Part shown: in pieces, positions 13,870-17,792 of the stretch
Position numbering within the stretch: position 1 is the first letter of the stretch
Layout of the letters: each line of letters begins with the position of its first letter
Assembly (NCBI RefSeq): GCF_004343725.1
Contig: NZ_PTQW01000013.1
Coordinates: 62,001 to 126,000, forward strand
Reading direction: 5' to 3'
Length of the DNA stretch: 64,000 nucleotides
DNA from: Treponema sp. J25
GTDB taxonomy: Bacteria; Spirochaetota; Spirochaetia; Treponematales; Breznakiellaceae
Position numbers and translations under genes: made by a program
The notes under the pieces: model-generated
Seen by the model: only the letters and a program-made list of their open reading frames with translations
Database searches by the model: none
Told to the model about the DNA's origin: nothing

Positions 13870-14388
13870 ATGATACACGCTATAGGAAATAAAAGGCCCC
13901 ACATAGCAGAAGATGTGTTTATCGCCTGGAATGCGGAAGTGGCGGGAGAGGTATCCCTTGGAGCGGGAGCCTCAGTATGGTTCTCCGCCACCCTGCGGGG
14001 AGATATCGCCCCAATCATCGTAGGAGAAGGGAGCAACATTCAGGACGGAAGTACCATTCATGTGGATACAAACATTCCCTGCATTATTGGGAAGGGCGTT
14101 ACCATTGGACATGGGTGTATTCTTCATTCGTGCACGATTGAAGACGGTTCTCTTATTGGTATGGGATCGATTATCCTGAACGGCGCAAAAATAGGGCCCC
14201 AGTCTATGGTGGGAGCTGGCGCCCTGGTTACCCCAGGGAAAGAGTTCCCCCCTCGGTCCTTAATTCTTGGGGCCCCCGCAAAGGTCGTACGGGAATTATC
14301 GGAAGAAGAAATAGCAAACATCCAGGAAAATGCCCGTCACTACCAAGAGCTGGCCCAAGAGGCAAAACATTCGTACACAGAAATTTGA
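13870..14388 (+). CDS. Gamma-carbonic-anhydrase-like left-handed beta-helix protein
   Basis: GAAAGGAG lies 1-2 nt before the ATG at 13870. The 172-residue product is built from hexapeptide repeats (left-handed beta-helix): the signature regions are NIQDGSTIHVD, GHGCILHSC and GAGALVTPGKEFPP. The histidine ligands of Zn/Fe in gamma-class carbonic anhydrases have equivalents in IHVD, IGHGC and LHSC. Family members (YrdA/PaaY/Cam-like) include true carbonic anhydrases and proteins with no proven activity. It starts the plus-strand run leading into the DRTGG/PHP module, 7 bp before the first DRTGG gene. Confidence 0.85.
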   Translation: MIHAIGNKRPHIAEDVFIAWNAEVAGEVSLGAGASVWFSATLRGDIAPIIVGEGSNIQDGSTIHVDTNIPCIIGKGVTIGHGCILHSCTIEDGSLIGMGSIILNGAKIGPQSMVGAGALVTPGKEFPPRSLILGAPAKVVRELSEEEIANIQENARHYQELAQEAKHSYTEI

Positions 14389-14395
14389 GGTTTCC

Positions 14396-14752
14396 ATGAA
14401 GCTTGGAGATATAGTAGAACACTTACCCGCCCACGTGGTATATCGGTGCAGCCGATTCAACGAAATAGAAATTGAACATGTTGTCGCGAGCGACCTCATG
14501 AGTGATGTCCTGGTTCTGGACTACGATAATATTCTCCTCGTTACATCCCTCGCAAGCGAACAGACTATGCGGACCGCCGATATCATCGGGGCCCGGGGAG
14601 TTTTGCTCGTGAATGATAAGAATCCCCAGCCTGCCATGAAGAAACTGGCCGAAGAACAGGATATCACCCTTCTTTCCACCCCCCTTTCAATGTTCGAAGC
14701 TTGCTGTAGCCTCGGGAAACTCATGGGAGGAGCCTGGTATGACAAACATTAA
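14396..14752 (+). CDS. DRTGG-domain protein (first copy)
   Basis: The start is placed at 14396, preceded by TGAGG; the frame is open further upstream inside the previous gene but without initiation signals. The 118-residue protein opens MKLGDIVEHL and contains the ASDLMSDVLV motif also present as TSDLLSDVMA in the second copy at 16599. This is the small DRTGG domain found alone or with CBS domains, proposed to bind a small ligand; its function is not established. It overlaps the HAD gene by 14 bp, so the operon is tightly coupled. In other anaerobes such proteins are encoded next to [FeFe] hydrogenase genes. Confidence 0.75.
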   Translation: MKLGDIVEHLPAHVVYRCSRFNEIEIEHVVASDLMSDVLVLDYDNILLVTSLASEQTMRTADIIGARGVLLVNDKNPQPAMKKLAEEQDITLLSTPLSMFEACCSLGKLMGGAWYDKH

Positions 14753-15674
14753 ACTCATCGCCTTAGATCTGGATGATACCCTTTTGCGAGAGGACCTTAC
14801 GATTTCTCACTATAGCCGGAGTGTCATAAAACAGCTCGAAAAGCGGGGTGTGACGGTAGTGCTTGCCTCAGGCCGTTCGCCTCAAGCCCTCCAAAAATAT
14901 GCCCATTTCCTGGAAATGAATAAACGGCCAGGGTATCTCATTTGCAACAATGGAACCACGGTTACAGAAAGCCACACGGGGAACATCGTGTATCAGGTGC
15001 TGCTCCCCTTAGAACCGGCTCTTAAGGTGTACGATCTCGTCGATGCCGAGGGCCTGCCGATTCAGATTTACGAAGATGATGTTATTTTTGTCTCCCGCCG
15101 CAATGAGTACGCCGATCAGGATGTAAAACTCACGGGACTGCGACAGGTGGTGGTTCAAAATTTCCGCTCCCTCCTTGCGCAAGGGGCCACCAAGATGGTT
15201 ATCCCTGGAGATCCCATGTTGCTTAAACCCTTAGAAATAATTTTAAAAACCTATCTGGGAGATGAGGTTACCATTTTTACCAGTAAGCCCTATTTTCTGG
15301 AAATTCTCCCGCCCTGCAGCGGAAAAGGGGAAGCCCTCGCTATAGTAGCCCAGCGCATGGGACTTAGTCCCCATGAGGTAATGGCCTTTGGGGATTCTAT
15401 GAACGACGAATCCATGCTCCGGTGGGCCACCTATGGGGTGGCAATGAAAAATAGTCAGCCCGCTATTCTGGAACTGGCTCCCTACGTTACCGAATTCACC
15501 AATGAAGAAGATGGGGTAGCGCGGTTTCTAGAAAAACATCTTCTTCGGAAGGAGCCCCTTCTCCCTTCCATCTCACAGAGGAACAGGGGTCCCATCGTGA
15601 CGGCGGAGGGGCAGATTTCATCACCAAGGCGCCCGCAGCCTTCTACTCAGGAGGATAATCCCCATGCAGGATGA
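14739..15674 (+). CDS. Cof-type HAD-superfamily hydrolase
   Basis: The motifs are LIALDLDDTLL (catalytic Asp pair, residues 8-18), VLASGRSPQ (motif II), a Lys in KGEALAIVAQRMG (motif III) and MAFGDSMNDESML (motif IV). A C2B-type cap domain lies between motifs II and III. These features define the Cof/YbiV subfamily of cytoplasmic sugar-phosphate or nucleotide phosphatases. The 35-residue Pro/Arg/Ser-rich tail after the HAD fold is an unusual extension without recognisable motif. It overlaps the flanking genes by 14 bp and 11 bp, which places a phosphatase inside the DRTGG/CBS/PHP operon. Confidence 0.9.
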   Translation: MTNIKLIALDLDDTLLREDLTISHYSRSVIKQLEKRGVTVVLASGRSPQALQKYAHFLEMNKRPGYLICNNGTTVTESHTGNIVYQVLLPLEPALKVYDLVDAEGLPIQIYEDDVIFVSRRNEYADQDVKLTGLRQVVVQNFRSLLAQGATKMVIPGDPMLLKPLEIILKTYLGDEVTIFTSKPYFLEILPPCSGKGEALAIVAQRMGLSPHEVMAFGDSMNDESMLRWATYGVAMKNSQPAILELAPYVTEFTNEEDGVARFLEKHLLRKEPLLPSISQRNRGPIVTAEGQISSPRRPQPSTQEDNPHAG

Positions 15675-16602
15675 TATCCCCATCAACACGGTGGATTCCC
15701 CTTCGGTAGTACTGGAGCTTATTTTCAAATTAAAAATAAAGGATGTCATGACCACCGCCCTCATTACCGCAAAAAAAGAGGACACCCTGCGGCACATTCA
15801 AGCCTTGATGCGGGAAAACTACATTACCGGTGTTCCTATCGCAGATGACCGACGACTTTTAGGTATTGTCTCCATAGACGACATCGTGACGGCCCTCGAC
15901 AAAGGCTACATTGATGACCGGGCCGAAAATCGGATGACCCGAAACGTGATTGTCCTCGAGGATGACATGCCCCTTTCCTTTGCTATTTCATACCTCAATA
16001 AATACCGATACGGTCGTTTCCCGGTGTTAAATAAAAACCGAGAGCTGGTCGGTATTATCACTTCAAAGGATGTGATCCGGGCTTTGTTAGTGGAAATGAA
16101 CCGGGAGGTCCTCAGGCTTGAAAAAATTCACAAACAGGAAAATAAGGGGCCTTCTACCGCAAAAGAACTGACCTTTCCTACCACCCGTTACGACTTTGAA
16201 CGGGCAGGCCATGCCTCTACCGAAATTAAAAAGGCTCTGAAACAGCTGAACCTGGATCCCAAAATCATTCGCCGCATCGCCATTGCAAGTTATGAACTTG
16301 AAATAAATCAGGTGGTTCACTCCTATGGTGGCACCATCTCCTGTTCCATCCTTCCCGACCGGGTAATCATCACCGCCACCGATACGGGACCGGGAATCGA
16401 AAATATCGAACTGGCATTGCAGGAAGGCTGGTCCACCGCCAACGAATGGATCCGGTCCCTTGGGTTTGGGGCGGGCATGGGCCTGGCAAATACCAAGCGG
16501 GTCTCCGATGAATTTTCGATCCAATCTACCGTAGGAGAAGGAACCACCGTTGTTTCGGTGGTATATTTAAATTCCCATAAAAACGATGAGGACCCATTAT
16601 GA
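15664..16602 (+). CDS. CBS-pair protein with RsbW-like ATPase domain
   Basis: Residues about 25-150 contain two CBS repeats (KDVMTTALITAKKEDTL and RMTRNVIVLEDDMPL), a Bateman module that usually senses adenine nucleotides. Residues about 180-312 form a GHKL/HATPase domain of the anti-sigma/RsbT type: N-box-like ASYELEINQVVH, G1 DTGPGIE and a glycine-rich lid GFGAGMGLANTKRVSD. Such ATPases phosphorylate or sequester a protein partner. The same gene type accompanies [FeFe] hydrogenase subunits in Clostridia and Thermotogae. It lies between the HAD gene and the second DRTGG gene, overlapping both. Confidence 0.85.
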   Translation: MQDDIPINTVDSPSVVLELIFKLKIKDVMTTALITAKKEDTLRHIQALMRENYITGVPIADDRRLLGIVSIDDIVTALDKGYIDDRAENRMTRNVIVLEDDMPLSFAISYLNKYRYGRFPVLNKNRELVGIITSKDVIRALLVEMNREVLRLEKIHKQENKGPSTAKELTFPTTRYDFERAGHASTEIKKALKQLNLDPKIIRRIAIASYELEINQVVHSYGGTISCSILPDRVIITATDTGPGIENIELALQEGWSTANEWIRSLGFGAGMGLANTKRVSDEFSIQSTVGEGTTVVSVVYLNSHKNDEDPL

Positions 16603-16943
16603 ACATCCGTGACATTGTAGAACCCCTCGGCGCTACCATAGTGCAAGGCCAGTTTGAAGATCGGAATATACAGGGGGCTTATACATCGGACCTTTTATCT
16701 GATGTGATGGCCAACGCCAAGGAAGGGGGAGCCCTCATTACCATCCAGGCCCATAAAAATACGGTAGCCGTGGCAAGCCTCGTAAACATCTCGGTAATTA
16801 TCGTCTGCAATAACCGTCCCATCCCCGAAGACATGATAGAAGCCGCCCGGGAAGAGGGGATAGCCATTCTTCAAACAAAGGAAAATCAATTTATTACTTC
16901 TGGGCGCTTGTATACCTTACTGGGACTCCATGAAAAGAACTAA
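16599..16943 (+). CDS. DRTGG-domain protein (second copy)
   Basis: The 114-residue paralogue of the protein at 14396 has MNIRDIVEPL at the start and TSDLLSDVMANA in the middle, followed by an alternating hydrophobic beta-alpha-beta stretch. It overlaps the CBS/ATPase gene by 4 bp (ATGA). The two copies differ enough that they are unlikely to be a recent duplication. The role is unknown; the operon suggests a nucleotide- or redox-responsive regulatory complex. Confidence 0.75.
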   Translation: MNIRDIVEPLGATIVQGQFEDRNIQGAYTSDLLSDVMANAKEGGALITIQAHKNTVAVASLVNISVIIVCNNRPIPEDMIEAAREEGIAILQTKENQFITSGRLYTLLGLHEKN

Positions 16944-17075
16944 AGCAAAAGGGGAAGAAGGCCCAGAATTGAGGGCCGCCTTCACAAAGCTGGCTTTCCG
17001 GTCGTCGGGGCACTGACGTAAGGATTGGGCCAGCCCTCGTTTCTGGACATACAGTGCTGATATTAAGGATGTACC

Positions 17076-17792
17076 ATGCGGGCAGATTTACATAACCACT
17101 CATGCCTTTCTCCCTGTGCATCCCTTGAGATGTCTCCCCGCCGATTGGTGATCGAGGCATCCCGAAAGGGCATCACCATTCTAGCCCTCACGGACCATAA
17201 CAGCACGAAAAATTGTCCTGCCTTTGAAAAACTGTGCTATGAAGCAAAGATAGTCCCCATTTTTGGTCTAGAAGCCTGCACGCGGGAAGAAGTGCACATC
17301 CTGTGTCTTTTTACCGACCTTGATGCCGCCATGAACTTTGGCGACCACTGCTACCGGCTCCTTCCGCCGATTCCCCATAACCCCGAACAACTTGGGGACC
17401 AGGTTGTGGTAAATGAAGATGAGGAGATTCTGGAAGAAGTGGGGTATTACCTTGGCTCTGCCCTGGATCTTGGGGTTGATGAAATCGGCCCCCTTGTAGA
17501 AAGTGCTGGGGGTATGGTTATTCCGGCCCACATCGACCGACCGGCCTTTTCTATGATAAGCCAGCTGGGTTTTGTAGTAGACGGCCCCTGGGCTGCCCTT
17601 GAGTGTATCCGCATCCCACCGGCCTATCCAACCGGCTCATATCCTCTTATCACCGGTTCCGATGCTCATTACGTAGAACACATTGGCCGCCGTTCCTTCG
17701 AGCTAGCTGTCCGGACCCAGGAGGAAAAAACCCCTGATAAACCCGATGAGCGCCTTGCGTGGCTTAAAGCATGCTTGGGATCACACAAATAA
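17076..17792 (+). CDS. PHP-domain phosphoesterase
   Basis: The protein of 238 residues has the PHP metal-binding motifs: DLHNHS (residues 4-9), TDHNS (about 41), GLEACTREEVHILC (about 67), PAHIDR (about 152) and GSDAHY (about 195). PHP enzymes are trinuclear metal phosphoesterases acting on nucleotides, histidinol phosphate or DNA ends. AAGGA lies 6 nt before the ATG. It is 132 bp after the second DRTGG gene; the gap holds no gene. The set DRTGG, RsbW-like ATPase and PHP is recurrent near [FeFe] hydrogenases, which supports a shared pathway though no hydrogenase lies in this window. Confidence 0.88.
   Translation: MRADLHNHSCLSPCASLEMSPRRLVIEASRKGITILALTDHNSTKNCPAFEKLCYEAKIVPIFGLEACTREEVHILCLFTDLDAAMNFGDHCYRLLPPIPHNPEQLGDQVVVNEDEEILEEVGYYLGSALDLGVDEIGPLVESAGGMVIPAHIDRPAFSMISQLGFVVDGPWAALECIRIPPAYPTGSYPLITGSDAHYVEHIGRRSFELAVRTQEEKTPDKPDERLAWLKACLGSHK

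Follow-up and report, generated by a model that had tools for sequence, protein, structure and literature searches.

We analyzed a 64,000-nucleotide stretch of the Treponema sp. J25 genome, called the window here (contig 13, bases 62001–126000; the assembly is 3.18 Mb and was judged 99.9% complete). It carries a cassette that encodes two DRTGG proteins, an ATPase bearing a pair of CBS domains (CBS-ATPase) and a PHP-type phosphoesterase, and the original prediction, made from the letters of the window, had described it as a hydrogenase-associated module preceded by a gamma-carbonic-anhydrase-like gene and interrupted by a Cof-type HAD phosphatase gene. Profile scans found every one of these genes on the plus strand, as follows.

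13870–14388, + strand: gamma-carbonic-anhydrase-like hexapeptide protein (below the NCBIfam cut-off; start probably the ATG at 13870)
14396–14752, + strand: DRTGG-1 (PF07085, E = 5e-5, slightly under the Pfam cut-off)
14739–15674, + strand: Cof-type HAD-IIB phosphatase (TIGR00099, Cof subfamily, above cut-off)
15664–16602, + strand: CBS pair with a SpoIIAB/RsbW-type HATPase domain (PF00571, E = 4e-27; PF02518, E = 6.5e-8; PF13581)
16599–16943, + strand: DRTGG-2 (PF07085, above cut-off)
17076–17792, + strand: PHP-type phosphoesterase (PF02811)

The genes for DRTGG-1, HAD, CBS-ATPase and DRTGG-2 are joined by overlaps of 14, 11 and 4 bp. The PHP gene overlaps nothing and follows DRTGG-2 after a 132-bp gap, so the term overlapping operon, applied to all five genes, was right for four of them. 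A divergent parAB pair lies upstream. The Pfam scan of the six proteins detected neither a sigma factor or STAS protein nor a family II pyrophosphatase catalytic domain, and a promoter and terminator scan at the cassette yielded matches no more numerous than in shuffled sequences.

The corresponding loci of relatives were read by tblastn and hidden Markov model (HMM) scans. The CBS-ATPase was present in approximately 25 relatives of the same family (66–84% identity), and DRTGG-2, with PHP where the contig reaches, followed in the same order in nearly all of them. The pair formed by the gamma-carbonic-anhydrase-like gene and DRTGG-1 was kept in several spirochaetes (L048, L064, L065, L072, and L097). 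The nearest genome (L048), which we take to be probably Gracilinema caldarium, is a single contig of 3,239,340 bases and encodes a CBS-ATPase that is 84% identical. Against it, the ratio of nonsynonymous to synonymous substitution rates (dN/dS) was 0.05 for CBS-ATPase and 0.11 for both HAD and PHP, and dS was saturated for the remaining three genes. The AlphaFold model of DRTGG-2 showed the DRTGG fold with high confidence (predicted local distance difference test score, pLDDT, 95.6), and Foldseek matched it to the DRTGG structure 2ioj with a template modelling (TM) score of 0.81, and also to 3l2b and 3l31. The family-wide conservation, the low dN/dS and this confident fold argue against chance reading frames; all six genes are real and placed as listed.

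The CBS-ATPase and the two DRTGG families

In the CBS-ATPase, the CBS pair (residues approximately 23–145) precedes the HATPase domain (residues approximately 168–300). The domain has both the fold and the kinase-site residues (E, N, DxGxG, and the G-rich lid) of the SpoIIAB/RsbW group. Foldseek matched the AlphaFold model (pLDDT 86) to SpoIIAB (1til) with a TM score of 0.84 and to nucleotide-bound CBS pairs, and E211, N215, D240xGxG and the loop G267–G273 were invariant in 38 ATPase sequences from several phyla. The roles of these kinase-site residues are established for SpoIIAB. In addition, both CBS units keep the nucleotide-type motif G-h-h-[ST]-x-x-D (residues 67–73 and 130–136). HMM and tree analyses placed the protein in the cassette's own HATPase family. 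The proposal of nucleotide sensing by the CBS pair and protein phosphorylation by the RsbW-like domain fits these domains, and both activities are predicted from the sequence.

A survey of 92 ATPase loci, in which a few contigs were fetched and hence counted twice, indicated that the CBS pair and the [FeFe]-type sensor HydS alternate. The CBS pair was fused to the ATPase at 64 of the 92 loci, and a group D HydS lay within 3.5 kb at none of these 64. At the other 28 loci the ATPase lacked CBS, and a HydS neighbour was found at 25; one of the remaining three is a short contig. No HydS lies within 3.5 kb of the window ATPase. HydB, which was counted because HydS matches the HydA model, was nearby at 15 of the 28 CBS-less and 17 of the 64 CBS-type loci, many of which end at contig ends. 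On the ATPase tree, which was built from a short alignment and has many unresolved forks, the CBS label needs three changes and is compatible with a single origin. From the alternation across loci, we infer that the fused CBS pair stands in for HydS as the input.

Natural fusions of the ATPase with DRTGG were found in seven genomes of two families (by HMM; by Pfam in five), and one fusion with a HydS-like domain was found.

L144–L150 (families f28 and f47): downstream-type DRTGG at the ATPase C-terminus, with a separate upstream DRTGG before it
L151:5530–7221, − strand (genome G115): ATPase and HydS-like domain in a single frame of 564 amino acids, with a partial PF02906 match

No hydrogenase was seen near the loci L144–L150. 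These fusions suggest that the kinase touches DRTGG, and the sensor touches the kinase, in the unfused forms as well. A further CBS-ATPase–PHP fusion (L059:9590–11107) was not used; it has no DRTGG, and the matches to ATPase and PHP overlap each other, hence a frameshift or deletion is likely.

The tree of 115 DRTGG proteins separated upstream from downstream DRTGG by a single change (Shimodaira–Hasegawa-like approximate likelihood ratio test support 99). DRTGG-1 fell in the upstream family as an orthologue of the upstream DRTGG of clostridial hydrogenase operons, and DRTGG-2 fell in the downstream family. The tree indicates that the two are separate old families and that the window has therefore retained an ancient design of two parts in full; it also ruled out DRTGG-1 as a recent copy of DRTGG-2. 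Ser34 and Thr48 (DRTGG-2 numbering) were invariant in 115 of 115 aligned proteins. The Ser is absent from another DRTGG domain of the same genome, located in a frame of 601 amino acids.

Hydrogenases in the genome and across Spirochaetota

The original prediction had described the module as being without a hydrogenase. Locally this held, as no hydrogenase gene lies beside the cassette genes, but it failed for the genome as a whole. A profile search of the genome returned five PF02906 matches; HydF is also encoded, and a second HydA adjoins a NuoF-like/oxidoreductase protein on contig C10. Two loci stand out.

Same contig as the cassette (L046; C13:170000–189999): trimeric bifurcating-type [FeFe] hydrogenase operon with a 232-amino-acid protein (no Pfam match), a NuoE-like protein, a HATPase, a small protein (weak DUF1636 match), HydB and HydA
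Contig C32 (L047:3297–9466): hfs-like cluster with a PHP protein, a PAS-containing [FeFe] protein, a SpoIIE phosphatase, a 2Fe-2S protein and a 480-amino-acid HydA-like protein

The first operon begins approximately 95 kb downstream of the PHP gene, and the start of its HydA is 101.6 kb from that of the CBS-ATPase. Its first gene (L046:5142–5837) showed only 32–35% identity to relatives whose HydB is 87–94% identical. In the second locus, the PAS-containing protein is of the sensory type that the original prediction proposed to look for, and the gene order from that protein onward is the published order of hfsB, hfsC and hfsD (PMC11837493, PMC5707799).

In the closest relatives, the hydrogenase operon lies approximately 3 kb from the cassette. 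Downstream of the cassette, L048, G021 (L049/L072) and a Treponema metagenome-assembled genome (MAG; L064) have a cytidylate-kinase-like gene, then an AMP-ligase gene and finally the same hydrogenase operon, the HydB and HydA of which are 86–95% identical to those of Treponema sp. J25. In the latter, the AMP-ligase gene still adjoins the hydrogenase operon and no longer adjoins the cassette. The cassette and the operon are also side by side in the distant spirochaetes L097, L098, L103, L161 and L162. Linkage in both the nearest relatives and deeper spirochaetes indicates that the cassette once adjoined the hydrogenase and then moved apart, and that the separation seen here is a derived state. 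The two are 2.16 Mb apart in the single-contig genome G028. A hydrogenase operon also adjoins a spirochaete-like CBS-ATPase cassette (58% identity) in a MAG named Clostridia bacterium (L094), a case of either lateral transfer or misnaming. The hydrogenases of the genome and the linkage in relatives together ruled out a truly stand-alone module; of the stand-alone signalling core that had been suggested, the signalling core remains plausible.

Among 393 Spirochaetota genomes, the CBS-ATPase occurred in 89 and a long HydA (about 740 bits or more) in 150. Both were present in 76 genomes, the CBS-ATPase only in 13, the long HydA only in 74, and neither in 230 (76/89 vs 74/304; odds ratio 18, Fisher p about 1e-25). 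The original prediction had placed these genes in a hydrogenase-associated set and had tied this to their co-occurrence with hydrogenases across spirochaetes, which was found. When both were on one contig (33 genomes), they were at most 11 kb apart in 20. The 13 genomes with only the CBS-ATPase and 12 short-ATPase genomes were scanned for PF02906 and PF00374, and an [FeFe] protein or a plausible [NiFe] large subunit was present in 24 of the 25, the exception being G154; weak PF00374 matches to short frames were left out because relatives from respiratory complexes may match this model.

Two further settings were observed. In genus g144 (L153/L164, L154/L165, L167, and L169), DRTGG and CBS-ATPase genes are near [NiFe] subunit or hypA/hypD genes, and the genomes with those loci gave no PF02906 match. 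In G198 (L157:5751–14108), CBS-ATPase, DRTGG, PHP and HATPase genes are beside CooC-like and carbon monoxide dehydrogenase/acetyl-CoA synthase (CODH/ACS) genes.

Proposed role of the cassette and rival explanations

The explanation that we favour, and to which we give slightly better than an even chance, is that the cassette is the spirochaete, CBS-input version of a regulatory cassette accompanying hydrogenase operons, in which a CBS-gated Ser/Thr kinase acts on DRTGG partners to tune H2 metabolism. Comparison of sequences establishes the cassette membership, the positional orthology of the DRTGG proteins, the co-occurrence, the relocation, the CBS/HydS alternation, the kinase-site conservation and the fusions, and from them we infer the following biochemical steps. 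The CBS pair would bind an adenine nucleotide and report the energy or nucleotide state (step 1), and its state would gate the fused SpoIIAB-type ATPase, a putative Ser/Thr kinase (step 2). The kinase would dock on and phosphorylate both DRTGG proteins, for which the invariant Ser34 or Thr48 are the best candidate acceptors (step 3). Dephosphorylation would fall to a SpoIIE-type phosphatase, to the PHP enzyme or to both, and less probably to HAD (step 4), and the state of DRTGG would set the synthesis or activity of H2-metabolizing enzymes (step 5). Group D HydS appears to provide the same ATPase with its input in other lineages.

For step 4, the cascade's phosphatases had been proposed to be HAD and PHP, which is doubtful. 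The PHP protein conserves metal-ligand-type motifs (H6xH8, E66, H74, H152, and D196/H198). Most family members have the HAD gene upstream of CBS-ATPase. It went undetected at every clostridial locus examined and at many of the spirochaete loci; this distribution rules it out as a universal core member and indicates that it is a lineage-specific addition between DRTGG-1 and CBS-ATPase. The SpoIIE-type phosphatase beside the PAS-containing sensory-type [FeFe] protein would be at least as good a candidate as either.

Several points weigh against the proposed role. The cassette has no obvious output gene such as a sigma factor or transcription regulator, and many termite-gut relatives lack DRTGG-1 while keeping the other genes. 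The invariant Ser and Thr may be structural or ligand-binding instead, and the co-occurrence statistic ignores shared ancestry. Furthermore, the 74 of 393 genomes with a long HydA and no CBS-ATPase include the single-contig genome G038, whose HydA is 82% identical; therefore, the hydrogenase does not need the cassette.

The SpoIIAB match of the HATPase model, together with seven STAS and 13 SpoIIE matches elsewhere in the genome, would also suit a conventional anti-sigma factor/kinase with its STAS and sigma factor partners encoded elsewhere and with DRTGG proteins that only sense or stabilize. However, the STAS matches are all on contigs other than that of the cassette, the natural fusions join the ATPase to DRTGG, and the two DRTGG families hold fixed positions around it, which makes this explanation unlikely. 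Similarly improbable is a role in which the proteins help multi-subunit H2/CO enzymes with assembly, cofactors or repair, with the ATPase as a chaperone and PHP acting on a cofactor or damaged nucleotide. Maturation help would also suit the location of the cassette next to hydrogenase genes of both the [FeFe] and [NiFe] kinds and, in one case, next to CODH/ACS genes, but [FeFe] hydrogenases, including close orthologues, occur without the cassette, and the association with HydS and CBS sensors and the SpoIIAB kinase residues fit signalling better. A shade less probable still is that the cassette, once separated, was re-purposed in its own family and ceased to serve a hydrogenase, for example by working with its divergent neighbour parAB. 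Few neighbours in the family are as constant as ParA, HAD has been gained, and many relatives are without DRTGG-1; against this, a hydrogenase is still encoded in nearly all genomes with the CBS-ATPase, the nearest relatives keep the physical linkage, and the kinase is under strong purifying selection.

Beyond the spirochaete CBS-input cassette, we tentatively raise a wider possibility, with the chances somewhat against it: a kinase cassette for H2 metabolism that is portable and can exchange its inputs, comprising a SpoIIAB-type kinase and two dedicated DRTGG partner families, with H2/redox input by group D HydS in some lineages and nucleotide input by fused CBS in others, and serving [FeFe], [NiFe] and possibly CODH/ACS enzymes. 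If this were true, DRTGG would join STAS as a fold with which switch kinases partner.

Comparison with known systems

H2 sensing and the setting of hydrogenase levels in anaerobes are poorly understood. Sensory hydrogenases are often set apart from bifurcating ones by a histidine/serine kinase (PMC3561251). In the literature found, no role was given to the hydrogenase-operon genes for ATPase, DRTGG and PHP beyond a kinase-like neighbour suggesting regulation, and no link of DRTGG to these operons in substance was found in a search that left subscription journals mostly outside. The two-DRTGG design, the alternation, the fusions and the candidate acceptor residues make a directly testable signalling chain, and the CBS form would be a soluble kinase, assays of which need no H-cluster to be assembled.

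The closest known systems are the group D (M2e) HydS operons of Clostridia, such as the TamHydS locus. Their order (L118–L143) is DRTGG, short ATPase, group D-type HydS, DRTGG and PHP, with NuoE-HATPase-2Fe2S-HydB-HydA adjoining. The window resembles them in ATPase family, both positional DRTGG proteins, PHP and gene order; in contrast, its ATPase carries a CBS pair, no HydS lies between the ATPase and DRTGG-2, a HAD gene interrupts the set and the hydrogenase genes are at another site. The anti-sigma Ser kinases SpoIIAB/RsbW share the fold and kinase-site residues of the window ATPase, whereas the latter has CBS as its input domain, is flanked by DRTGG in place of STAS genes and has no sigma factor in the cassette. 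CBS-DRTGG family II pyrophosphatases, represented by the DRTGG-2 matches 3l2b/3l31, likewise combine CBS and DRTGG; unlike them, the window places the two on separate proteins without a pyrophosphatase domain. For the hfsABCD/HydS-HydA2 systems of Thermoanaerobacterium and Ruminococcus albus, H2/redox-linked Ser phosphorylation has been proposed (PMC11837493, PMC5707799). The cassette is a different locus with different families: hfs has a PAS sensor and a phosphatase, whereas the window has CBS and a kinase. The association of such genes with hydrogenases was already known; the two DRTGG families, the CBS/HydS alternation, the ATPase-DRTGG and ATPase-HydS fusions and the invariant Ser and Thr are new here.

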